The notes under the pieces are model-generated. The model saw only the letters and a program-made list of their open reading frames with translations, did not search any database and was not told the DNA's origin. This document shows, one piece after another, positions 2,926-63,394 of a stretch of DNA of 64,000 bases (the stretch's first letter is position 1; every line of letters starts with the position of its first letter). Made by a program: the position numbers and the translations under genes. The DNA is from Parvibaculaceae bacterium PLY_AMNH_Bact1 (lineage in GTDB: Bacteria; Pseudomonadota; Alphaproteobacteria; Parvibaculales; Parvibaculaceae), in the NCBI GenBank assembly GCA_032881465.1, contig CP126168.1, positions 992,001-1,056,000 of the forward strand, read 5' to 3'.

Positions 2926-4480
2926 GATTGCCCCAATAGCGATCCCGCACGAGACGCTTGTAGAGCTTACCTGTTGGGTGACGCGGCAGTTCCTCGTCAA
3001 AATCCACTGAGCGCGGGCACTTGATCTGTGCCAACTGCTCTTTGCAGAAATCCATCAGTTCCGCTTCGAGATCAGGCCCGGCTTCATTCCAGTCTACCGG
3101 TTGCACGACGGCCTTCACTTCTTCGCCAAAGTCTTCATTTGGAACGCCGATGACGGCGACGTCTGCGACTTTAGGATGAGTGATGAGAACATTCTCCGCT
3201 TCCTGCGGATAGATGTTCACACCGCCGGAAATGATCATGAACGCTTTGCGGTCTGTGAGGTAGAGATACCCGTCTTCATCGACACGGCCCACGTCGCCGA
3301 GCGTTGACCAGCCGCGTTTGGATGGGTGGCGCGAGTCTTTCGTTTTGTCTGGATCATTATGATACTCGAACATATCGTCCGGGTCTGCATCCTCTGCCGG
3401 TGCAAAATAGATGGTTCCGGCTTCGCCAACGGGAAGCTCGTTGCCATCTTCATCACAAATATGAACCGACCCAAGCAGCGGTTTACCCACCGAACCTTTA
3501 TGCTCCATCCACTCTTCGGAATTAAGCTGGCAGAACCCGTTGCCCTCAGAGCCTGCATAATATTCATAGATGACAGGGCCCCACCATTCGATCATCTGTT
3601 GTTTGACCGGAACCGGGCAGGGCGCTGCTGCGTGAATGGCAACTTTGTGGGATGAGAGGTCGTATTGTCGAAGTTCGCCCTGTGGCATTTTCAGCATGCG
3701 GACAAACATGGTCGGTACCCATTGTGAGTGGGTAATTTTGTGCTTTTCAATCAGTTTCAGCGACTCTTCTGGATCAAAATGATCCATCACGATGCAGGTG
3801 CCCCCAATACGCTGAACTGACATATTGTAGCGCAAGGGTGCTGCGTGATAGAGCGGCGCGGGTGAGAGATACATGGTCTCTTCGGTCATTCCGTAAAGGA
3901 GTGTCACCAGATTGAGCAGGCCTTCGCCTTCGTCAATCGGCCCTCCTGAAAGTTTCCGACGAATACCCTTTGGCCGTCCTGTTGTGCCAGAGGAGTAGAG
4001 CATGTCTGTGCCCGCTGTCTCATCTGCAATTCGGTCCGTTGGCATTCCGTTGCGAGCTTCTTCATAGCTCTCATAGCCATCATCTTTGCCATTGATCATG
4101 AAGCGTTTTGTGACGCCTTTGAGCTGGCCTTGGCCGACAAGCTCGTTGGCTACGGCGCCAATTGCGCTTGAGGTGAAGAAAAGCTTCGCACCGCAATCGT
4201 CCACAATATAGTCGACCTCAGGCGCGGTCAGGCGCGAGGAAATTGCCGTAAAATAGAGGCCGGCCCGCTGCGCCGCCCAACAGAGTTCCAGAAAACGCGC
4301 GTTGTTTTCCATAAAAATGGCAATTGCGTCGCCAGGCTTCAGGCCTTCAGAGCGGAACAATTGCGCGGCTTGGTTGGTGCGGTCTTCCAGTTCGCCATAG
4401 GTCACAACTTCCCCGGTCGCCGCCATGATGTAGGCGGGCTTATCGGGGTTTTTGGCGGCGTGGTGGCATGGGTGGAACAT
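2906..4480 (-). CDS. AMP-binding acyl-CoA synthetase
   Basis: A 524-residue adenylate-forming enzyme with the ATP/AMP motif MLYSSGTTGRPKGI, the YEYYAGSEG A5-like segment and the C-terminal hinge GDVGRVDEDGYLYLTDRKAFMIISGGVNIYP (described here as D-R-K with the GGVNIYP A8 loop) and PRHPTGKLYKR with the catalytic Lys near the C-terminus. It activates a carboxylic acid to its CoA thioester. The closest annotated type is the long/medium-chain fatty acyl-CoA ligase group. It diverges from the crotonase gene at 4698 across a 217-bp gap and is followed by an overlapping ChaC-like gene. The acid substrate cannot be read from the sequence. Confidence 0.9.
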   Translation of the reverse strand: MFHPCHHAAKNPDKPAYIMAATGEVVTYGELEDRTNQAAQLFRSEGLKPGDAIAIFMENNARFLELCWAAQRAGLYFTAISSRLTAPEVDYIVDDCGAKLFFTSSAIGAVANELVGQGQLKGVTKRFMINGKDDGYESYEEARNGMPTDRIADETAGTDMLYSSGTTGRPKGIRRKLSGGPIDEGEGLLNLVTLLYGMTEETMYLSPAPLYHAAPLRYNMSVQRIGGTCIVMDHFDPEESLKLIEKHKITHSQWVPTMFVRMLKMPQGELRQYDLSSHKVAIHAAAPCPVPVKQQMIEWWGPVIYEYYAGSEGNGFCQLNSEEWMEHKGSVGKPLLGSVHICDEDGNELPVGEAGTIYFAPAEDADPDDMFEYHNDPDKTKDSRHPSKRGWSTLGDVGRVDEDGYLYLTDRKAFMIISGGVNIYPQEAENVLITHPKVADVAVIGVPNEDFGEEVKAVVQPVDWNEAGPDLEAELMDFCKEQLAQIKCPRSVDFDEELPRHPTGKLYKRLVRDRYWGNHDSKIV

Positions 4481-4697
4481 TTAGGTCATCTCCCGGCGTG
4501 TTTTTATTGGTCTCGGCAGCCTAGGTGCTGGCGCGCGCTGGCTTTTCTACTGCAGCCTTGTCGCGAAGGCTGTTATATCAGGTGCAGACATTTATGCACC
4601 GCTGAATTCGCGAGGGAACTGCGATTTGCCAGTCTCCAAAGGTGACGCAGGGGAAACATATCCTTCGAAACGCCAGGGTTTGAATAGGGAGAAAAAA
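4481..4697. promoter_or_regulatory. Divergent promoter region of the acyl-CoA synthetase and crotonase genes
   Basis: This 217-bp gap lies between two divergent fatty-acid genes and must hold both promoters. A GGGAG ribosome site precedes the crotonase ATG. No clear long palindrome was seen, so a shared regulator site is not proposed. Confidence 0.5.
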
Positions 4698-5603
4698 ATG
4701 AGCTACGAGACAATCAAATATGAGGTTGAGGACAACATCTTGACCATCACTCTGCATCGGCCAGAGAAGATGAACGCGTTCACCGGACAGATGATGCTCG
4801 ACATGATCGATGCCTTTGATCGGGCGGATGCCGATGATGATGTCCGCGCGATCATTATCACAGGTGAGGGCAAAGCTTTTTGTGCAGGTGCTGACCTGTC
4901 AGCAGGCGCAAAAACCTTCGATTATGAAAAGCGGGACGACCGGCCCGACAAAGGCGGTTCTGCGGCGACAGCTGATGGCGAGATCGACTGGAGCCATCCC
5001 TCTGTACGTGATGGTGGCGGACGCTTGACGTTGCGTATCTATGAAAGCCTGAAACCGGTGATTGGTGCCATCAACGGGGCTGCCGTTGGCATTGGTGTCA
5101 CGATGCAGCTGCCCATGGATATTCGCCTTGCTTCAGAGAAGGCGCGTTTCGGTTTCGTGTTTGCCCGTCGAGGCATTGTTCCCGAAGCCTGTTCCAGCTG
5201 GTTTCTGCCCCGCGTCGTTGGCGTGAGCCAGGCACTGGAATGGATTTATTCAGGCAAAGTGTTCGACGCGCAGGAAGCGCTTCGCGGCGGCCTCGTGCGG
5301 GAAGTGTTGCCCGAAGATCAGCTCTTGCCGAAGGCACGGGAAATCGCGCGTGAGATTGCTGACAACACAGCGCCCGTGTCGATTGCGCTTTCGCGTCAGC
5401 TTGTATGGCGCATGGCGGGTGCGGACCACCCGATGGAAGCACACAAGCTGGACAGCCGGTCCATCTTCTCCCGTGGTGCATCAGCAGACGCAAAGGAAGG
5501 CGTTATGTCGTTCCTCGAAAAACGCCCAGCAACTTATCCGTGCAAGGTGTCTGAAGACATGCCTGTCTTCTTCCCTTGGTGGGACGAACGCGAATACGAA
5601 TAG
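4698..5603 (+). CDS. Crotonase / enoyl-CoA hydratase family protein
   Basis: A 301-residue crotonase. The oxyanion-hole segments are AFCAGADLS (about residues 55-63) and AINGAAVGIGVTMQLP, with GIVPEACSSWFLPRVVG following. The start at 4698 was chosen over an upstream frame start because it has GGGAG just upstream and matches the family N-terminus (YETIKYEVEDNILTITLHRP). An insertion of about 30 residues follows the first oxyanion segment, making it longer than the usual 260. The family covers hydratases, isomerases and hydrolases; here only one obvious catalytic Glu (in VPEACSS) is seen, so hydratase activity itself is not assured. It probably works with the divergent acyl-CoA synthetase. Confidence 0.88.
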   Translation: MSYETIKYEVEDNILTITLHRPEKMNAFTGQMMLDMIDAFDRADADDDVRAIIITGEGKAFCAGADLSAGAKTFDYEKRDDRPDKGGSAATADGEIDWSHPSVRDGGGRLTLRIYESLKPVIGAINGAAVGIGVTMQLPMDIRLASEKARFGFVFARRGIVPEACSSWFLPRVVGVSQALEWIYSGKVFDAQEALRGGLVREVLPEDQLLPKAREIAREIADNTAPVSIALSRQLVWRMAGADHPMEAHKLDSRSIFSRGASADAKEGVMSFLEKRPATYPCKVSEDMPVFFPWWDEREYE

Positions 5604-5610
5604 AGAGCCT

Positions 5611-5645
5611 ATTCTCGAAAAGTTGCAGACTTTTCGGATGAGAAT
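5611..5645. repeat. Short palindromic element after the crotonase gene
   Basis: Two nested inverted repeats: outer ATTCTC/GAGAAT and inner GAAAAGT/ACTTTTC with a TGCAG loop. There is no T-run, so it is not a typical terminator. It resembles small GAAAAGT...ACTTTTC palindromes that are common between genes in Hyphomicrobiales; that likeness is from memory. It lies between two convergent genes and may act as a weak bidirectional hairpin. Confidence 0.5.
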
Positions 5646-5671
5646 ACGCGTTAGAAAAAGAGCACAGCGGG

Positions 5672-24477: not shown

Positions 24478-25086
24478 TTAAAAATACAAAACCGACATCA
24501 CAATGGGTGCACACCAAGTGAGCTGACTGACATATTTTGTTTCGATACCTGGTTCCAGTGGCACCAAGCCGAACCGTGCCCCATTTTTGGGGCTTTGAAT
24601 GAGACGCCGGAGAAAAGTTTTCCCGCCGCGCAATCCTACGAGGCAGTCCTGATCAAGGGCCTGCTTAATGTCGTCACCTGCCAGCCTGTCAGCGATGAGA
24701 AGAGCACCGGCAGTGTAGCGACCGATATCATGCTTGACCTGAACAGCAATCGGAACCGTCGCAGGAACGTGCAGCAAAAACCCGGTATCTAGCGACTTTT
24801 TGGGCATGACAACGGCACCGCCTACGCTCAGCTCTCCAAGCATCTCAATGCGCTCCGGCGAGGGCTCATCAATCAGATCCGTGAGTTGGACCTGAAATAT
24901 TTTTGCAAGCGGTGCCAGCCAGTCGACGGAAATTTTGATCCCGTCAGTCTCCAGTCTGGAAACTGTGGCAGCTGTCGTTCCCAGGAGCTTTGCCAGATCG
25001 GTCTGTGTCAGGCCCATTTGACGGCGGTAGTGTCGAATTCGATTTTTCACGGGCTTTCTCTCATTTGCATTTCGCGCTGATAGCAT
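24478..25086 (-). CDS. XRE/Cro-family repressor-like regulator
   Basis: A 202-residue protein with an N-terminal XRE HTH (RRQMGLTQTDLAKLLGTTAA, TVSRLETDGIKIS) and a C-terminal domain of about 120 residues with the strand pattern of cI/LexA-like C-terminal domains, though no Ser-Lys peptidase pair is obvious. The ATG at 25086 was chosen; a GTG at 25050 is also possible. A perfect palindrome (25108-25122) lies just upstream, in the region shared with the divergent DnaA-like gene. It probably represses itself and perhaps that gene. Confidence 0.75.
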   Translation of the reverse strand: MLSARNANERKPVKNRIRHYRRQMGLTQTDLAKLLGTTAATVSRLETDGIKISVDWLAPLAKIFQVQLTDLIDEPSPERIEMLGELSVGGAVVMPKKSLDTGFLLHVPATVPIAVQVKHDIGRYTAGALLIADRLAGDDIKQALDQDCLVGLRGGKTFLRRLIQSPKNGARFGLVPLEPGIETKYVSQLTWCAPIVMSVLYF

Positions 25087-25107
25087 ACGCCTGACACCCA
25101 AAATAAC

Positions 25108-25122
25108 TTGCGTAAAACGCAA
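25108..25122. promoter_or_regulatory. Palindromic operator candidate, XRE repressor/DnaA-like intergenic region
   Basis: TTGCGT and ACGCAA flank AAA as a perfect inverted repeat, 22 bp upstream of the repressor ATG and about 100 bp before the divergent gene. The size fits a Cro/cI-type operator. Binding by the adjacent XRE protein is inference. Confidence 0.55.
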
Positions 25123-25220
25123 AATTTACCCCCGGGGTTTGCAGACAGCCTTATATGTAAGGGCACGGTCAAAGAGATCGAAACACAATCGTCTGATAAC
25201 CAGGTGGGAGGCGCAATGAA

Positions 25221-25655
25221 ATGCAAAAAATGTCCTCAAATGTTTCACTGAATCACACGGAAGAACTATCACGCTACGGTATTTTGACCACGAAGGCTGC
25301 CGCCAAACGGGCGGCTATATGGGCGCACCAGGCAGCCGACGTCCGACTGACCTGTGAAGTGGTCGCAAGAGTTTACAACATTTTGCCCGAAGCGCTCTGT
25401 GCGAGCACCCGCGGTGAAGCACATGTCGCTCAAGCCCGGCAGATCGCCATGTATCTCTCCCACATCACGTTTGGCCTGTCGCTGGGTGCGGTAGGGCGGC
25501 ATTTCGGACGCGACAGGACAACAGCGGCTTACGCCTGTGAGCGGGTCGAGGACCGGCGGGATGACCTCCGTCTTGATTCGATGCTGGATCGTCTGGAGCG
25601 AGCACTCTCCATCCTATCCGACGCCCGCTCCGATATGACGTCAAAGATCCAATAG
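25221..25655 (+). CDS. DnaA domain IV-like helix-turn-helix protein
   Basis: A 144-residue protein resembling the C-terminal DNA-binding domain of DnaA without the AAA+ domain. The signature LGAVGRHFGRDRTTAAYACE (DnaA: IG..FGGRDHTTV..A) is clear. Such DnaA-like HTH proteins are conserved in Hyphomicrobiales next to DUF6456 genes, as here (10 bp upstream of it). They are probably transcription regulators or modulators of replication; neither is shown. The start has GGGAG 10 bases upstream. Confidence 0.82.
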   Translation: MQKMSSNVSLNHTEELSRYGILTTKAAAKRAAIWAHQAADVRLTCEVVARVYNILPEALCASTRGEAHVAQARQIAMYLSHITFGLSLGAVGRHFGRDRTTAAYACERVEDRRDDLRLDSMLDRLERALSILSDARSDMTSKIQ

Positions 25656-25665
25656 GAGGCTGGAC

Positions 25666-26583
25666 ATGGAAATTGCGGCTGGTGTGTTGCGTCGTGAGGG
25701 AATGCGCGTGTTTCGACGGCTCAGGGAGCCAGAGTTCTTCCTGCAGAAAACAGTGGAAGATCCAGGTGTGGCCGGTCTTTTTGGTCCTCGCAATCGATGG
25801 CAACGGCCACTTATGAAACTCAATACAGATGTTCTGATGGCTTTGCATCGCGCAGATCTGCTCCAAGTTAGCCCGGAGGCTGCTGCCCAGAGGGCTCTTA
25901 GCGGCCAGGGGTCCATTGGAGGCCAGGGTTCCATTGGAGGAGAGGGTCCCGTCTATGTTTTGTCAGAAGCAGGGCATGGATGGTGGCGTCGGCAGATCGG
26001 GGGCGCGGAGCCTTTTCAGGCGCAGCACAGGCTCATGGGAGAAGCGGCAATGGAGGAGCCAGGCCGTGGCCTGGTCCGTCGGCAGGTGAACCTCGGGGAA
26101 TCACCGTTGGGGTGGCTCCGCCGACGCCAGGGAAAGAATGGAGCTGCCTATCTGACAGAAGAGGAGGCTGCAGCAGGCGAACAGCTGCGCCGGGACTATA
26201 CGCTTGCCCAACTGAATGCGCGCACGACACTGAATTGGGAAGGCATGCTGGCGCATGTGGACCGCTCGTCAATGGGACCGGCGGGACAGGGAGATCTGTC
26301 GGCTCATGCCCTGGACGCACGAAAAAGGGTGGAGCGAGCACTGGCGGAAGTCGGCCCAGGTCTGGCCGATATTTTGGTGGAAACCTGCTGTCACCTGCAC
26401 GGTCTGGAACAATCAGAGCGGACCCTCGGGTGGCCGCAACGCTCTGCAAAGCTCGTCCTCAAGATCGCCCTGACACGACTGGCGCATCACTACAAGCTGA
26501 TTGGCAGGCCAGAAGCCCGTCATGGTTCCTATGTTTGGAAAGCGGCTAACGAGGCGCCGCCCGGTGCCGATCAGTCCGTGTGA
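25666..26583 (+). CDS. DUF6456 protein
   Basis: A 305-residue protein. The C-terminal ~170 residues (GESPLGWLRRRQGKNGAAYL, then EEEAAAGEQLRRDYTLAQLN, then RLAHHYKL) match the DUF6456 domain known from Alphaproteobacteria. The first part has a short winged-HTH-like region. An in-frame duplication of 18 bp (25903-25938) encodes G-Q-G-S-I-G twice in the linker. It follows the DnaA-like gene by 10 bp, so the pair is an operon, and it ends 13 bp inside the convergent sufE. Function unknown, likely DNA-related. Confidence 0.8.
   Translation: MEIAAGVLRREGMRVFRRLREPEFFLQKTVEDPGVAGLFGPRNRWQRPLMKLNTDVLMALHRADLLQVSPEAAAQRALSGQGSIGGQGSIGGEGPVYVLSEAGHGWWRRQIGGAEPFQAQHRLMGEAAMEEPGRGLVRRQVNLGESPLGWLRRRQGKNGAAYLTEEEAAAGEQLRRDYTLAQLNARTTLNWEGMLAHVDRSSMGPAGQGDLSAHALDARKRVERALAEVGPGLADILVETCCHLHGLEQSERTLGWPQRSAKLVLKIALTRLAHHYKLIGRPEARHGSYVWKAANEAPPGADQSV
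25903..25938 (+). repeat. 18-bp tandem duplication within the DUF6456 gene
   Basis: Two adjacent 18-base units differing at one position, in frame, encoding GQGSIG twice, followed by a degenerate third unit. It sits in the linker between the two halves of the protein, where length change is probably tolerated. Confidence 0.7.
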
Positions 26584-54312: not shown

Positions 54313-54481
54313 TGTTCTTGAACATTAAACGCTCCCATCCCATCTAAAGTCCATCTCCAGAATTGCATCGAAGCGATTGGCATCTTTCAAAGAGAAAGAC
54401 CGCTAAGAAAATAATTGATGGTAAGACTTGATATAGCGACGATCATTCCTATCTTTAACCTCATCTCCAGAAATATGCTCA
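54294..54481 (+). promoter_or_regulatory. GTA cluster leader with direct repeats
   Basis: The 188-bp leader before the first GTA gene. CATCTCCAGAA occurs twice (54352-54362 and 54462-54472), exactly 110 bp apart; the second copy is about 10 bp before the start of the first gene. It may hold binding sites for the GTA activator. No consensus promoter was clear. Confidence 0.45.
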
Positions 54482-55000
54482 ATGCCTGATGACGCATCGC
54501 CCGAGACGGAAGAACTTAAGCCCGTTGACTGGGGGCACATTGCGCAGGCCTATCAGGCAGATGAGAAACTTGCGAATGTCGCAAAAGTTTACGGACTGAC
54601 CGTCCAAAAGATTGTCGCGCATGCCCAGCGTGAAGGCTGGCCGCTGCGATATGAAAGGCAGCAGGCAACCAAGCTGAAGCGATCGCCAGGGAGCACCGAC
54701 CCAGCGACTTTGCGCAAGCGCCTGACGGCACTCGTTGAGAGACAGATTGCAGAGATTGAAGGACGTCTGGCAGATGCAGCGGCAAGTCGCGACCATGAAA
54801 GAGATGCAAGAACACTTTCGAACCTGACCCGAACGCTAGACAAGTTGATTGAGTTGAAAAGAGCCGCCGCACTTGAGCGGGCGGAAGCCAAACGGATAAG
54901 AGAAGAAGAAAGCGGCAATGACAGCGCAAAGACCGACGACGCGCTCAGACAGGACCTGGCGCGCCGCCTGGCTCGCATCGCAGCCGCAGAAAGAGATTGA
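54482..55000 (+). CDS. GTA small terminase-like protein (ORFG1-like)
   Basis: A 172-residue protein with an N-terminal HTH-like part (AYQADEKLANVAKVYGLTVQ) and a C-terminal coiled-coil (LTRTLDKLIELKRAAALERA). Position before the large terminase matches RcGTA ORFG1, the small terminase. Overlaps terL by 83 bp. The start is an ATG with no obvious ribosome site. Confidence 0.75.
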   Translation: MPDDASPETEELKPVDWGHIAQAYQADEKLANVAKVYGLTVQKIVAHAQREGWPLRYERQQATKLKRSPGSTDPATLRKRLTALVERQIAEIEGRLADAAASRDHERDARTLSNLTRTLDKLIELKRAAALERAEAKRIREEESGNDSAKTDDALRQDLARRLARIAAAERD

Positions 55001-56237
55001 TGCTTTCCTGAGCGAGTTGAGCCCCCGGGAGCTCAGTTTTTTGGCTCACGATTGGCGCTTTTGGGCAAGGGCGAGCCAATGGCCACCATGCGGTGACTGG
55101 ACCACCTGGCTGATCCTTGGCGGACGCGGCGCGGGCAAGACCCGGGCGGGCGCTGAATGGATTGCAGGGCAGGTAAGAGCAGCACGCGCCGGACATATTG
55201 CCCTAGTCGGCGAGAGTTACGCAGATGCGCGCGAAGTCATGGTTGAAGGCACGTCGGGTTTGCGCGCGCTGGGGCCGGATCACACAAAGCCGCGCTATGA
55301 AGCAACGCGCCGCCGTGTGCTTTGGCCAAACGGCGCAGTGGCCAGCCTACATTCTGCGAGTGATCCAGAAGGTCTTCGAGGTCCGCAATTTGATGCCGCC
55401 TGGAGCGATGAAGCAGGCAAATGGCCGGATGCGGAAGCCGCCTGGTCCATGCTGCAGTTTGGTCTGCGGTTGGGTGAAAGCCCACGTCAGGTGGTGACGT
55501 CAACACCGCGGGCGGTGCCGCTGATCAGGAGTCTATTGGCTGACAAAAATGTCGCTGTGACACGGGCCACGACCTATGACAATCGCGCAAACCTTGCAGA
55601 TGCGTTTTTCTCGACGGTGATCAAGACCTATGAGGGAACCCGGCTTGGTCGTCAGGAGCTAAACGGCGAATTGCTGGAAGATGATCCCGACGCCTTATGG
55701 ACACGAACGCTTATTGAGCGCTGCCGCAAAACCTGCGCGCCCGACTTCGAACGGGTGGTGATCGGTGTCGATCCGCCGGCAAGCTCTGGCGACGGGGCGG
55801 ATGAGTGCGGCATCGTGGTGGCGGGGCTTGGGGGCGATGATCGCTTCTATGTGATTTCAGACCGCTCGCGCGCCCGTGCCAAACCAGCAGCCTGGGCAAG
55901 GGCCGTCGCGGAGGCGTATCAGTGTTTTGACGCAGACCGTGTCATCGCCGAAGTGAATCAGGGTGGTGAGATGGTTGCGAGCGTGCTTCACCACGTGGCG
56001 CCGACATTGCCGGTGCGCCAGGTCCGTGCGACGCGGGGCAAGAGAGTGCGCGCTGAACCAGTGGCAGCCCTCTATGAACAGGGTAGGGTCTCGCATCTTG
56101 CACCACTGCCGGAGCTTGAAGACCAGATGTGCAATTTCGCTGGCCACGGCAAAAGCCCGGACAGATTGGACGCCCTTGTTTGGGCCATAACAGATCTCAT
56201 GCGAACCGCGGGTGACCCCGCTATTCGACGCTTGTAA
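54918..56237 (+). CDS. GTA large terminase (ORFG2-like)
   Basis: A 439-residue phage-type terminase. The ATPase Walker A is LGGRGAGKTRAGAEW, Walker B QFDAAWSDEAGKWPD, and the C-terminal RNase-H nuclease has VIGVDPPASSGDG. It packages genomic DNA into GTA heads. No in-frame start is near the end of the upstream gene, so the 83-bp overlap seems real. Confidence 0.9.
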   Translation: MTAQRPTTRSDRTWRAAWLASQPQKEIDAFLSELSPRELSFLAHDWRFWARASQWPPCGDWTTWLILGGRGAGKTRAGAEWIAGQVRAARAGHIALVGESYADAREVMVEGTSGLRALGPDHTKPRYEATRRRVLWPNGAVASLHSASDPEGLRGPQFDAAWSDEAGKWPDAEAAWSMLQFGLRLGESPRQVVTSTPRAVPLIRSLLADKNVAVTRATTYDNRANLADAFFSTVIKTYEGTRLGRQELNGELLEDDPDALWTRTLIERCRKTCAPDFERVVIGVDPPASSGDGADECGIVVAGLGGDDRFYVISDRSRARAKPAAWARAVAEAYQCFDADRVIAEVNQGGEMVASVLHHVAPTLPVRQVRATRGKRVRAEPVAALYEQGRVSHLAPLPELEDQMCNFAGHGKSPDRLDALVWAITDLMRTAGDPAIRRL

Positions 56238-56247
56238 GGGAACAAAG

Positions 56248-57435
56248 ATGAATGCAGTGACGCAGCAAAAGCCGGTGGGCCTTTGGTCCAGGCTCTTCTC
56301 TCGGGCCCCGGCTACAAAGGCAAGCGCGACTGGCGCGCTGATCGCGCTGAGTTCCTTGGGGCGACCGGTCTGGACGCCCCGCGATTATGACCGTCTGGCA
56401 CGCGAAGGCTATGAACAAAATGCAGTGGCCTTCAGATGTGTGCGTATGATTGCGGAAGCCGCCGCGAGTGTGCCCTGGCTGCTGCGCGACGGCGATCAAA
56501 CTTTGAGCGAGCATCCATTGCTCACGCTTTTGACACGGCCCAATCCCGCTGAGAGTGGCACAGACCTTCTGGAGGCCTGGTATGGGCATCTGCAGGTGGC
56601 GGGGAACGCCTATCTGGAAGCGGTGAGTGTCGGCGACGACGTGCGCGAACTCTACGCGCTCCGCCCGGATCGCATGAAAGTGGTGCCCGGCACACGGGGC
56701 TGGCCGGAAGGCTATGAGTATGAGGTGAACGGACGGACGGTAATGTTCCGGGACGAACCCACAAAACCCATTCTGCACATGAAGGCCTTCCACCCGACCG
56801 ATGATCACTACGGTCTCTCTCCGCTTGAAGCCGCTGCAAAAGCCGTCGACATTCACAATGCGGCTGGAGCCTGGAACAAATCTCTGCTCGACAATGCGGC
56901 CCGTCCCTCTGGTGCGCTTGTCTATAAAGGGGTGGGTGGCGATGGCGCGCTCACCGATGATCAGTTCGCGCGGTTGAAGCGAGAGCTGGAAGACAATTAT
57001 GCAGGCTCGGCGAATGCGGGGCGTCCGCTCTTGCTTGAAGGCGGGCTCGACTGGCAGCAGATGGGGCTCGGTCCCCGCGATCTTGACTTTAACGAAGCGA
57101 AGAATGCGGCGGCGCGCGAAATTGCATTGGCGTTCGGCGTGCCACCCATGTTGCTCGGCATTCCCGGCGACAACACATTTTCAAATTACAAAGAAGCCAA
57201 TCTGGTTTTCTGGCGTCAGACCATTGTGCCGCTGGTGCGTAAGTCAGCAACCGCATTGACCCACTGGTTGGGCCCCCGTTTTGGGCCAGCGCTGCATCTC
57301 GATATTGACCTTGATACGGTCCCGGCCCTTGCTGCTGAACGAGAAAGCGTCTGGGCGCGGGTGAAAGACGCAGACTTCCTGAGCGATGACGAAAAACGCC
57401 GGACGGTGGGTTTAAGTGCGCGGGGGACAGTTTGA
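56248..57435 (+). CDS. GTA portal protein, HK97 family (ORFG3-like)
   Basis: A 395-residue portal: YDRLAREGYEQNAVAFRCVR, then the central IHNAAGAWNKSLLDNAARPS and ALAFGVPPMLLGIPGDNTFS, the typical HK97 portal sequence. GGGAAC precedes the start. Forms the ring through which DNA enters the head. Ends in TGATG overlap with the next gene. Confidence 0.92.
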   Translation: MNAVTQQKPVGLWSRLFSRAPATKASATGALIALSSLGRPVWTPRDYDRLAREGYEQNAVAFRCVRMIAEAAASVPWLLRDGDQTLSEHPLLTLLTRPNPAESGTDLLEAWYGHLQVAGNAYLEAVSVGDDVRELYALRPDRMKVVPGTRGWPEGYEYEVNGRTVMFRDEPTKPILHMKAFHPTDDHYGLSPLEAAAKAVDIHNAAGAWNKSLLDNAARPSGALVYKGVGGDGALTDDQFARLKRELEDNYAGSANAGRPLLLEGGLDWQQMGLGPRDLDFNEAKNAAAREIALAFGVPPMLLGIPGDNTFSNYKEANLVFWRQTIVPLVRKSATALTHWLGPRFGPALHLDIDLDTVPALAAERESVWARVKDADFLSDDEKRRTVGLSARGTV

Positions 57436-57698
57436 TGGACGAAGAGAGAGCGCCTGGGCGCTGGCATCTGGACAAGCGTGTGCCCATTGCCCTTATTGTC
57501 GCGATCCTCATTCAAACCGCCGGAGCGCTGACCTGGGCGGGGGCGGCATCAGAACGCATCAATCACCTGGAACGCGAGGTGATCAGCGATGACGATATGG
57601 GCGAGCGTACAGCACGTCTGGAAGTGCAGGCAGCCTATATGCGCGCCGCGCTCACCCGTATTGAAGACAAGCTCGATCGTGCGATTGCCAAAGAATAA
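57435..57698 (+). CDS. Small GTA membrane protein (g3.5-like)
   Basis: An 87-residue protein with one hydrophobic segment (VPIALIVAILIQTAGALTWA) and a C-terminal coiled-coil (ARLEVQAAYMRAALTRIEDK). Position matches the small gene between portal and protease in RcGTA. ATG overlaps the portal stop by one base. Followed by a terminator. Confidence 0.75.
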   Translation: MDEERAPGRWHLDKRVPIALIVAILIQTAGALTWAGAASERINHLEREVISDDDMGERTARLEVQAAYMRAALTRIEDKLDRAIAKE

Positions 57699-57726: not shown

Positions 57727-57758
57727 AGCGCCCCTCCAAAACGTGGGGCGCTTTTTTT
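57727..57758 (+). terminator. Rho-independent terminator inside the GTA operon
   Basis: A perfect 8-bp GC-rich stem (AGCGCCCC / GGGGCGCT, 10-base loop) followed by seven T. It is between the g3.5-like gene and the protease gene. All flanking genes are co-directional. Confidence 0.88.
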
Positions 57759-57772
57759 GTGCCGGGAGAAAC

Positions 57773-58465
57773 ATGAGCAAACCAACGCAACAGGAAAAGC
57801 AAAGAAGCACGACCTGTGAAACAAAACGGGCGGCCTTTCAGGTGGCTGAGGTGGATGACGCCGGAGCCTTCGAAGGCTATGCGAGCCTTTTCGGCGCTGA
57901 GGACTTAGGTCACGACCTCGTCCAGCGCGGCGCGTTTCGCGCAAGCCTTGCCAAACGGGGCGCTGATCAGGTGCGGATGCTCTTTCAGCATGACCCGGCA
58001 GACCCCATCGGGTCTTGGGACGAAATCCGCGAAGACAGCCGTGGCCTCTATGTGCGCGGCCGTCTTACCCTAGATGTCGCGCGGGCAAGAGATGTGCACG
58101 CCCTCATGAAAGCAGGCGCTTTGGACGGCCTCTCTATTGGCTTTCATACGGTAAAGGCCGTGCGCGATGCGGAAACCGGATTGCGCCATCTGATGGAACT
58201 GGATCTTTGGGAAATCTCTATCGTGACCTTTCCGATGCAGCCTGGGGCACGCGTAAGCGCGGTGAAATCCGTACGGCTGCCCACAGAACGAGAACTTGAA
58301 CGCTGGCTTTCGCGGGATGCGGGACTTAGCAGATCAGACGCCCGCGCATTGATCGCGGGTGGCTACAAAGCGGTGAAGGCGCGGCGGGATGCTGGCTTCA
58401 CCTCGACAGAGTTGGGAGCCCTGGCGCGGACATTCCGCGCAGCCGGCGCTCATTTCATTCACTAA
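57773..58465 (+). CDS. GTA prohead protease, HK97 family (ORFG4-like)
   Basis: A 230-residue protein with YASLFGAEDLGHDLVQRGAF, MLFQHDPADPIGSWDEIRED (catalytic His), LDGLSIGFHTVKA (catalytic Ser) and LWEISIVTFPMQPGA. Cleaves the capsid precursor during head maturation. GGGAG precedes the ATG, which was chosen over an upstream codon in the terminator. Confidence 0.92.
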   Translation: MSKPTQQEKQRSTTCETKRAAFQVAEVDDAGAFEGYASLFGAEDLGHDLVQRGAFRASLAKRGADQVRMLFQHDPADPIGSWDEIREDSRGLYVRGRLTLDVARARDVHALMKAGALDGLSIGFHTVKAVRDAETGLRHLMELDLWEISIVTFPMQPGARVSAVKSVRLPTERELERWLSRDAGLSRSDARALIAGGYKAVKARRDAGFTSTELGALARTFRAAGAHFIH

Positions 58466-58485: not shown

Positions 58486-59802
58486 ATGCCTCTCACAAGA
58501 GAGACCCGTGTGGGCCGCATTGGTCACACGTTGAGCAGTCCTGCGCCGACCGCCGCGCCGGAAAAGAAAAGCGCGGACCTGGGCTCACCTGCCATGCACG
58601 AAGTGCGCGACGCCATGGACGAATTCATGACGCGCTTTGATGCGTTCAAGCAGGCCAATGATGACCGTCTGTCTCAGGTGGAGCGGAAGCTCACAGCGGA
58701 CGTCGTGACCACAGAAAAAGTGGATCGCCTGAATGCGGCTTTGGATCTTCAGCAAAAGACCGTTGATGGTCTGGCCCTGTCGCTTACAAGGCCGGAAATC
58801 GGTTCCGCAGCGTCGTTCAATCCAGCTGCGCGGGAACATAAAGCTGCCTTTGAAACCTATGTGCGCCGGGGCAGCACAGGACCTTTGCGCAGTCTGGAAG
58901 AAAAGGCGCTGTCCATTCAATCTGACCCGGATGGCGGCTATCTGGTGCCAAGCGAAACGGAACAGATGATTGACCGGATCGTGTCGGAAGCCTCCCCCAT
59001 TCGCGCCATCGCGGGTGTCCGCCAGATCGGTGCTGCCTCTTACAAGAAACCTTTTGCGACAAGCGGGGCAGCAACAGGCTGGGTCGGTGAGACAGAGCCC
59101 CGTGCTGAAACCGGTACACCAAAAATTTCTGAGCTCGAGTTTCCAGTCATGGAGCTCTATGCCATGCCGGCGGCGACATCGACCCTTCTGGATGACAGCG
59201 CGGTCAATATCGACCAGTGGATCGCAGAAGAAGTGCAAACTGCTTTCGCTGAACAGGAAGGAGCGGCCTTTGTCTCCGGCGATGGCGTGAGAAAACCTCG
59301 CGGCTTCCTCTCCTACGATACTGTCGACAATGACAGCTGGGCCTGGGGCAAGGTGGGCTATGTCGCCACAGGCGCTTCTGGTGCCTTCCCGGCACTCAGC
59401 CCGTCAGATGTATTGCTTGATCTTGTCTATTCCGTGAAGTCCGGCTATCGCGCGAATGCGCATTTTGTCATGAACCGGCAGACTCAAGCGCAGATCCGCA
59501 AGTTCAAAGACGCTGACGGCAACTATCTCTGGCAGCCAAGCCTGACAGCGGGTCAAGCACCGCGACTGATGAATGTGCCAATTGCCGAAGCAGAAGACAT
59601 GCCGGATGTGGACGCCGACAGCTTCGCACTGGCCTATGGCGACTTCCGCCGTGGCTATCTGATCGTAGATCGTCTCGGCATTCGTGTCCTGCGCGATCCC
59701 TACACGGCAAAACCCTATGTCCTCTTCTACACGACCAAACGGGTAGGCGGCGGCATCCAGAATTTCGAAGCGATCAAGCTTCTGAAATTCGGCACAGCAT
59801 AA
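58486..59802 (+). CDS. GTA major capsid protein, HK97 family (ORFG5-like)
   Basis: A 438-residue capsid protein with an N-terminal coiled-coil delta domain (about residues 35-105) and the HK97-fold body (SDPDGGYLVPSETEQMIDRI, EVQTAFAEQEGAAFVSGDGV, VLFYTTKRVGGGIQNFEAIK). A strong AAGGAG precedes the ATG. Forms the GTA head. Confidence 0.94.
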   Translation: MPLTRETRVGRIGHTLSSPAPTAAPEKKSADLGSPAMHEVRDAMDEFMTRFDAFKQANDDRLSQVERKLTADVVTTEKVDRLNAALDLQQKTVDGLALSLTRPEIGSAASFNPAAREHKAAFETYVRRGSTGPLRSLEEKALSIQSDPDGGYLVPSETEQMIDRIVSEASPIRAIAGVRQIGAASYKKPFATSGAATGWVGETEPRAETGTPKISELEFPVMELYAMPAATSTLLDDSAVNIDQWIAEEVQTAFAEQEGAAFVSGDGVRKPRGFLSYDTVDNDSWAWGKVGYVATGASGAFPALSPSDVLLDLVYSVKSGYRANAHFVMNRQTQAQIRKFKDADGNYLWQPSLTAGQAPRLMNVPIAEAEDMPDVDADSFALAYGDFRRGYLIVDRLGIRVLRDPYTAKPYVLFYTTKRVGGGIQNFEAIKLLKFGTA

Positions 59803-62533: not shown

Positions 62534-62718
62534 GCTTTGCCTGCGGCGTGCTGCACTGGACACCAAGGGACTTCTGGTCGGCGACTTTATCTGAGCTGGA
62601 AGGGGCAGCGTTGGCATTTGCCCCCGGTGAAAATGGCGCAATGCCAAGGGGCGGCCTTATCGGTCTGATGGCGCGCTTCCCTGATGATGATACAGGAAGA
62701 AATTTGGATGGAATTTGA
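62530..62718 (+). CDS. GTA small tail assembly chaperone (ORFG10.1-like)
   Basis: A 62-residue protein (HWTPRDFWSATLSELEGAAL) of the rcc01693-type tail assembly chaperone family. It starts with TTG at 62530, overlapping the previous stop. The small size matches the family. Confidence 0.85.
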   Translation: MSFACGVLHWTPRDFWSATLSELEGAALAFAPGENGAMPRGGLIGLMARFPDDDTGRNLDGI

Positions 62719-63394
62719 GAGTTTCGATGTGCGGCGATTGTCGTCGGACGTGGCCGGCCTTCGTGCGGAGTTTGACGCGACAGCGAGTGCCAGCGGACGG
62801 CTCGGCAAAGAAGCCAAGACCGCCTTTGCGGGCATCACACGAGAAGGGGACCGTGCCTCCAGAGTGGGACAGGATTTGCAACGCTCCCTTGGATCAGCGT
62901 TCGACGATCTGGTGATGGGCGGGCGGTCGTTACAAGACGTATTGAAATCCCTCGCGGTCGATCTCGCAAAATTGGCGGCACAGGACATTTTTGGAACCGG
63001 GGTTGGGGGTGGTCGATCGGGAACCAGCGGGTCAGTATTAGGAGATCTGTTTGGATCAATCCTGACACCCAATACCAAAGGGAATGTGTTTTCTCAGGGG
63101 TCACCTTTAATGGGCCCTGTGCAGGCCTTTGCAAAGGGGGGCGTGCTGTCCGACCCAACCCTTTTCTCAATGCGGGGTGGGGTAGGGCTTGCCGGTGAAG
63201 CGGGTGCTGAGGCGATCCTGCCGCTTGCCCGTGGCGCGGATGGAAAGCTTGGTGTGGCATCGCGAGGAAACGGCCAAGCCCTCAACATCACTTTCAATGT
63301 CACTGCGACCGACGCGGCAAGTTTTAAGCGCAGCGAAAGCCAGATCGCCACGATGCTTCAGCGCACGGTCAGTCGCGGCAATCGCAACCTTTAA
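62708..63394 (+). CDS. GTA tape measure protein (ORFG11-like)
   Basis: A 228-residue tape measure (LSSDVAGLRAEFDATASASG, RSLQDVLKSLAVDLAKLAAQ, FAKGGVLSDPTLFSMRGGVG, LAGEAGAEAILPLARGADGK). It is far shorter than in most siphophages but fits GTA. The ATG at 62708 overlaps the previous stop by 11 bases. Confidence 0.9.
   Translation: MEFESFDVRRLSSDVAGLRAEFDATASASGRLGKEAKTAFAGITREGDRASRVGQDLQRSLGSAFDDLVMGGRSLQDVLKSLAVDLAKLAAQDIFGTGVGGGRSGTSGSVLGDLFGSILTPNTKGNVFSQGSPLMGPVQAFAKGGVLSDPTLFSMRGGVGLAGEAGAEAILPLARGADGKLGVASRGNGQALNITFNVTATDAASFKRSESQIATMLQRTVSRGNRNL

Follow-up and report, generated by a model that had tools for sequence, protein, structure and literature searches.

The 64,000-nt stretch of DNA analyzed here (hereafter, the window), from Parvibaculaceae bacterium PLY_AMNH_Bact1, raises the question of how the genes for a gene transfer agent (GTA) particle could be expressed across a predicted stop signal that lies among them. 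Specifically, a first-pass annotation made from the letters had claimed that a canonical terminator sits inside the structural operon, between the g3.5-like gene and the protease gene, and had suggested that it could be a dosage or on/off control point specific to this GTA. A terminator in that position demands either read-through or antitermination if the genes behind it are to be transcribed. We therefore considered the hairpin itself, its distribution among related genomes, the promoters and regulators that could act on it, and the explanations that compete for its presence.

The hairpin and the cluster that contains it

The genes surrounding the hairpin followed the RcGTA-type order of small and large terminase, portal, protease, and capsid (Table 1). 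The identities of the portal, protease, and capsid proteins came from Pfam and NCBIfam, and the name g3.5 was given by position and by the first-pass annotation. Further downstream, positions 62684-63394 matched NF058675, the RcGTA-type tape measure model, with an E of 8e-47 and a score of 159.8 bits that is below the cut-off of 220. The g4 ATG at 57773 was preceded by a ribosome-binding-like site, GGGAGAA, and a longer g4 frame from a GTG at 57743, within the hairpin, was accordingly disfavored.

Table 1. Coordinates of regulatory and structural features in the window.
Feature	Coordinates	Strand	Evidence
RogA-like HTH repressor candidate, divergent from gafY (tentative)	24478..25122	-	HTH domain alone
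GafY-like protein, DnaA domain IV	25221..25655	+	PF08299
GafZ-like protein, DUF6456, 305 aa, proposed anti-terminator	25666..26583	+	PF20057, E 1.6e-50
Second promoter-like motif copy, upstream, ending in CATCTCCAGAATTGC (54352-54366)	54317..54366	+	motif resemblance
Candidate GTA promoter: TTGATA (54428-54433), TATCTT (54450-54455), CATCTCCAGAAATAT (54462-54476)	54428..54476	+	motif resemblance
g1-like small terminase, first cluster gene	54482..55000	+	phrog_1206, E 1.4e-5
g2-like large terminase	54918..56237	+	profile matches
g3-like portal	56212..57435	+	PF04860
g3.5-like small protein, start overlapping the g3 end	57435..57698	+	weak phrog_8909, E 5e-4
Predicted terminator stem-loop in the g4 leader	57727..57752	+	direct read, fold, strict scan
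T-run of seven T, the first paired at the stem base	57752..57758	+	direct read
g4-like HK97 prohead protease	57773..58465	+	TIGR01543
g5-like HK97 major capsid protein	58486..59802	+	TIGR01554

Read directly, the stem comprised eight perfect base pairs, with arms at 57727-57734 and 57745-57752 enclosing a loop of 10 nt. The left arm runs from A57727 through GCGCCCC to 57734 and is followed by the loop, TCCAAAACGT, and by the right arm, GGGGCGC from 57745 and then T57752, which pairs with A57727 and is itself the first T of the seven-T run; a G follows the run. On the coding strand, the hairpin begins 28 nt after the g3.5-like stop (57698), and its stem ends 20 nt before the g4 ATG (57773). A GC-rich stem leading directly into a T-run on the transcribed strand is what an intrinsic terminator looks like in sequence, and on stem, T-run, and strict scan alike the element looks, as the annotation had it, like a canonical terminator within that operon of structural genes.

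The 36-nt hairpin element had an MFE of -17.1 kcal/mol versus a shuffle mean of -8.7 (SD 2.4, z -3.5), and 1 of 200 shuffles was as stable; the whole g3.5-g4 gap (about 74-78 nt) folded less exceptionally (z -1.6). Under our strict scan, which asked for a compact hairpin with a T-run of at least five, dG <= -10, and at least four GC pairs, the + strand of the 64-kb window gave six matches, whereas 10 dinucleotide shuffles averaged 1.4. The hairpin at 57727 was the sole strict + strand match at 54.4-64 kb, a statement that covers the part of the GTA cluster within the window, as the cluster extends beyond the window end. A generic terminator scan also reported the hairpin, in a register shifted by that program's loop limit of 8. 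A known riboswitch or leader RNA was considered for the site and dropped because no Rfam family matched there; a single sub-threshold match was located elsewhere (E 0.4).

Conservation of the element before g4

Among 61 genomes searched, 37 belonged to the window's family (Parvibaculum and relatives), and a g4 locus was recovered from 29 of the 37. The eight family genomes that had no g4 match are outside the 29, and extra, weaker g4 matches in three genomes (G011, G024, and G029) were left out of the counts. A strict hairpin and T-run directly preceded g4 in 26 of the 29 family loci (L002-L030) and in all seven genomes searched from the window's own genus. Thus, the absence from close relatives that would have spoken against the first-pass annotation did not materialize, and its proposal that the element is specific to this GTA gave way to a hairpin common to the family. 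The family loci without it were L009, L017, and L019 (genomes G009, G012, and G010), the last of which, read by eye, appears to have lost a segment present in its near relative, L018.

The T-run comprised 5-7 T in all 26 hairpin loci (the scan itself required at least five), and the GCGCC-type stem core was largely unchanged. Two-sided changes in the stem were seen at pair 3 (A-T, two loci), pair 5 (T-A, two), pair 6 (T-A, two), and pair 7 (T-A in two loci and G-C in one). Strong covariation of the stem was entertained and rejected, since the apparent swaps at pairs 2-4 were mostly a one-pair register shift and were mostly gone once this was corrected. With so few two-sided changes, the case for conservation lies in presence and place rather than in covariation.

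Between the stem end and the g4 start there were 14-81 nt (n = 26, median 23), but the distance from the g3.5 stop to the hairpin was 25-843 nt across the 22 measurable loci. In six loci of the window's genus the hairpin started 27-69 nt past g3.5, and the distance exceeded 1 kb in L038, L040, and L098, reaching about 2.3 kb in L038. The hairpin was therefore kept beside g4 even where more than 2 kb had been inserted upstream, and this spacing, fixed to g4 and variable to g3.5, indicates that it belongs to g4. In 24 of the 26 loci the g4 start was found beside a ribosome-binding-like site 3′ of the hairpin; in L029 and L030 the g4 start was located behind the hairpin without such a site. Because the stop site lies 5′ of the g4 ribosome-binding site, a polymerase halted there would not have transcribed that site.

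The scan was extended to the full length of 25 loci, namely the window and 24 of the 27 named family loci, mostly from the same genomes as the 29 above; L051, L055, and L057, in which no g4 was found, were left out. Across these 257 kb there were 33 + strand matches, comprising a g4-leader match in 22 of the 25 loci and 11 matches elsewhere, and seven - strand matches, with a shuffle mean of 7. Control regions of 9-14 kb around nuoD in 20 family genomes (273 kb, operon end unmarked) gave three + and seven - strand matches, and the three + strand matches were at differing places, so that none recurred. In L051, a MAG contig, large terminase and capsid domains were present in one open frame (3051-5666) and a protease gene was not found; the fused frame might stem from misassembly of the contig or from a deletion.

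We also placed the hairpin on a capsid tree built from 50 selected rows, where its label needed at least five changes. By our own count, these were two gains and one loss in the family and two gains outside it, and a history with one family gain and three losses costs one extra change. A single ancestral origin in the family is possible on this tree, and is not forced by it. Anderseniella (L059), which NCBI assigns to Parvibaculaceae, had no hairpin and fell outside the window's family group in the tree. As judged from the genome sequences, then, the predicted terminator is a conserved part of the g4 leader and not a quirk of one GTA.

The interval between g3.5 and the hairpin also held other genes. 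Specifically, S26 signal peptidase genes were inserted upstream of the hairpin in L038 and L040, and L041 had an NTF2-fold immunity gene, on the opposite strand, upstream of the hairpin. Foreign genes were present in this interval in L038, L040, L041, and L098, forming what resembles a moron-like hot spot within the GTA cluster, and foreign proteins besides the signal peptidase and the immunity gene were found at the same junction.

Candidate promoters and regulators

Two tandem promoter-like copies were located before g1 (54317-54476), and the nearer consisted of TTGATA, TATCTT, and CATCTCCAGAA. The downstream part of this motif was found in 17 of 28 loci, with 20 matches that were all on the + strand and all before g2 wherever g2 was found. 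Genome-wide, the downstream element was matched exactly twice, each time before g1; with one mismatch allowed there were six further matches elsewhere versus one for the reversed control. A palindrome like the GafZ site, AGCGTNACGCT, was exact in six of the 17 promoter-motif loci and degenerate in the window. In those six loci it was positioned upstream of the downstream element, between the two hexamers, and this placement resembles that of the GafZ site of Caulobacter, putatively situated between -35 and -10 in C. crescentus as described in PMC11150451. In L038 and L039, an extra strict terminator closely followed the pre-g1 promoter motif (the nearer promoter copy of L038 was read by eye).

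Near g4, the candidate promoter motif was not found in any of the 28 loci, and a generic sigma-70 scan gave no promoter-like site there, its total being five sites versus a shuffle mean of 4.6. Moreover, 14-81 nt from hairpin to g4 start leaves hardly any room for a promoter. The internal promoter that the first-pass annotation had offered as one way past the terminator was thus rejected as the main explanation on the short gap and on the lack of both the motif and a sigma-70-like site, although a promoter within g4, or one of another type, may yet exist.

A protein that could carry polymerase past such a site is known from the GTA of Caulobacter crescentus, for which GafZ has been described as an anti-terminator (Tran and Le 2024, PMC11150451). 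According to that account, GafY and IHF start transcription of the C. crescentus cluster, and GafZ lets some of the polymerase pass two terminators, terGTA and rrnB T1 of E. coli (PMC11150451). Reporter activity is given there as still cut about 8-fold by terGTA with GafZ present (PMC11150451), so that read-through may be partial. Rhodobacter GafA is described as having one half that corresponds to GafY and another that corresponds to GafZ (PMC9632790). Relatives of GafA carry the annotation DUF6456 or helix-turn-helix protein (PMC9638019, PMC9765227), and the possibility that Rhodobacter GafA is an anti-terminator as well is raised in PMC11150451.

The first-pass annotation had advised a search for antiterminator-like genes near GTA regulators, and a GafY-like/GafZ-like pair was indeed present in the window. 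Putative homologues of both gafY and gafZ are therefore encoded in this genome, assigned by domain and adjacency. Together with the tentative rogA-like gene they form a set (24478-26583) that sits 28 kb before the GTA cluster. PF20057 was found in 36 of the 37 family genomes and, among 14 control genomes, in Caulobacter vibrioides only. The genomes of the hairpin-less loci (G009, G012, and G010) retained PF20057, and hence the presence of GafZ does not track that of the hairpin.

Proposed role, alternatives, and relation to other systems

GTA production kills the producer cell, and the cluster must therefore stay silent until needed. We infer that the hairpin is likely a functional intrinsic terminator of the g4 leader, kept by selection and bypassed by polymerase that carries GafZ. 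A polymerase that started before g1, or leaked in from upstream, would halt at the hairpin unless it carried GafZ, and the stop would leave the packaging genes (g1-g3.5) on one side and those for protease, capsid, and tail on the other. Once GafY and GafZ were made, GafZ would load at the GTA promoter, travel with the polymerase, and let some or most of it pass the hairpin, as in Caulobacter. The purpose would be to keep lethal particles from being made by leaky expression, and an effect on dosage might come along with it. In other words, the terminator is probably a safety catch, and particle building would have to wait until a helper protein released it.

Two alternatives accept a terminator and differ over its role. 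One is a fixed dosage attenuator, that is, a partial terminator whose constant read-through sets the ratio of terminase and portal to capsid and tail, with no regulated antitermination. Its appeal lies in the conserved position of the hairpin, exactly between the packaging and head genes, and in the partial bypass described for Caulobacter terGTA even with GafZ (PMC11150451). However, an attenuator there would presumably reduce the most-needed protein, capsid, relative to terminase and portal, which is the wrong direction, and a GafZ-type protein is present in all but one of the 37 family genomes; we consider this explanation unlikely. The other, which we hold to be improbable to a similar degree, is that the terminator came with, or shields, the cargo between g3.5 and g4, and that antitermination of the GTA operon is the only reason for its being tolerated. 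The foreign genes upstream of the hairpin in some Parvibaculum-type loci (L038, L040, and L041) are as it would predict, and on the capsid tree the hairpin may have arisen more than once within the family. Yet the six measured loci of the window's genus had no cargo although the hairpin was present in 7/7 genomes, and its spacing was constant to g4, not to cargo. Because the single origin is unforced and the covariation modest, we lowered our estimate for the selected, GafZ-bypassed terminator a little and raised that for the cargo boundary.

The remaining alternatives dispense with termination altogether. Intercistronic hairpins set stoichiometry in the photosynthesis operons of related bacteria, and with this precedent the stem could be an mRNA processing or stability element that protects a transcript end. 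Such stems need no T-run, whereas one followed the stem immediately in every hairpin locus, and we view this explanation as very improbable. Chance is hardly credible: shuffles did give about 1.4 strict matches per 64-kb strand, but 22 of 25 loci shared one place against 11 matches elsewhere in 257 kb, and the nuoD-region control was flat.

In a survey of the class, 74 of 387 genomes matched. Of the 68 that lie outside the family, 39 were analyzed, at 40 places, and the other 29 were left out. Outside the family, a strict match lay no more than 200 nt from the g4 domain in four of 88 g4 loci (L065, L077, L088, and L149), which rules out the g4 leader as a universal GTA site. Across 92 further GTA-like loci (748 kb, with L066 dropped as the same locus as L150), there were 74 strict matches on the + strand versus 26 on the - strand; some of these, in coding DNA, are probably chance, and some of the loci may belong to prophages instead of GTAs.

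The matches in the 92 loci were placed at several junctions. Among the 62 loci showing both g2 and g3, 12 had a match at the junction of the two; five of the 12 were from Hoeflea or Pseudohoeflea, and no match was found there in the Hoeflea loci L075 and L080. At the g3/g4 junction one was found in eight of 79 loci, and six of these, Rhizomicrobium included, were of a common GGCCGCC type. Matches were also seen between g4 and g5 (7/87 loci), behind g5 (11/90), and before g2 in 10 loci, of which Chelativorans accounted for three. A further 25 matches were classed elsewhere, including the g4-leader matches of L065, L077, and L149, loci that show no g3. In nine loci (L068, L073, L082, L093, L094, L097, L155, L156, and L182), the g2/g3 match preceded the g4 domain by about 1.7-1.9 kb.

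By lineage, then, the places were the g4 leader (Parvibaculum and relatives), the g2/g3 junction (several Hoeflea), behind g3 (relatives of Rhizomicrobium), before g2 (several Chelativorans), and behind the capsid gene (others). The broader proposition is that internal terminators are general in RcGTA-type clusters, with a place that shifts by lineage, that antitermination by GafZ/GafA-type proteins is the ancestral control of these domesticated phages, and that the terminators are movable safety catches that guard against leaky and lethal expression; we regard this as evenly poised between holding and failing. In a search of open-licence papers, we found no report of a conserved pre-g4 terminator in RcGTA-type clusters, nor of lineage-specific internal terminators in them. 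The conserved g4-leader site and the recurrent internal terminators elsewhere look new, and the GafZ mechanism is already published for another terminator, that of Caulobacter. Override by GafZ had previously been shown, as described in PMC11150451, for one terminator in one species. A terminator at a fixed place across genera, with others that recur, would supply a comparative rule for where the catch is located, which genes stand behind it, and whether Rhodobacter GafA is an anti-terminator too.

The arrangement in C. crescentus is like that in the window in that a terminator is present in the GTA operon and a GafZ-type anti-terminator and a GafY-type activator are encoded in the genome. However, terGTA is described as three 150-bp GC-rich direct repeats after the first gene, gtaT, while the element in the window is a single short hairpin with a T-run, comes after the g3.5-like gene, and is conserved across genera. 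The Bartonella GTA has a phage origin separate from that of the RcGTA type, and antitermination in it, as proposed here, is reportedly the subject of a study by Korotaev and co-authors (reference 36 in PMC13236601). In the Q-dependent late operons of lambdoid phages (pR′/tR′), and with AlpA of Pseudomonas, an anti-terminator is loaded at the promoter and downstream terminators are tolerated. The additional terminator behind the promoter motif in L038 and L039 resembles these phage Q systems, with their stop behind lambda pR′. GafZ itself is described as having neither sequence nor predicted structural similarity to Q/AlpA-type proteins (PMC11150451). Moreover, unlike in the Q and AlpA systems, the conserved stop in Parvibaculum and its relatives lies deep inside the operon.
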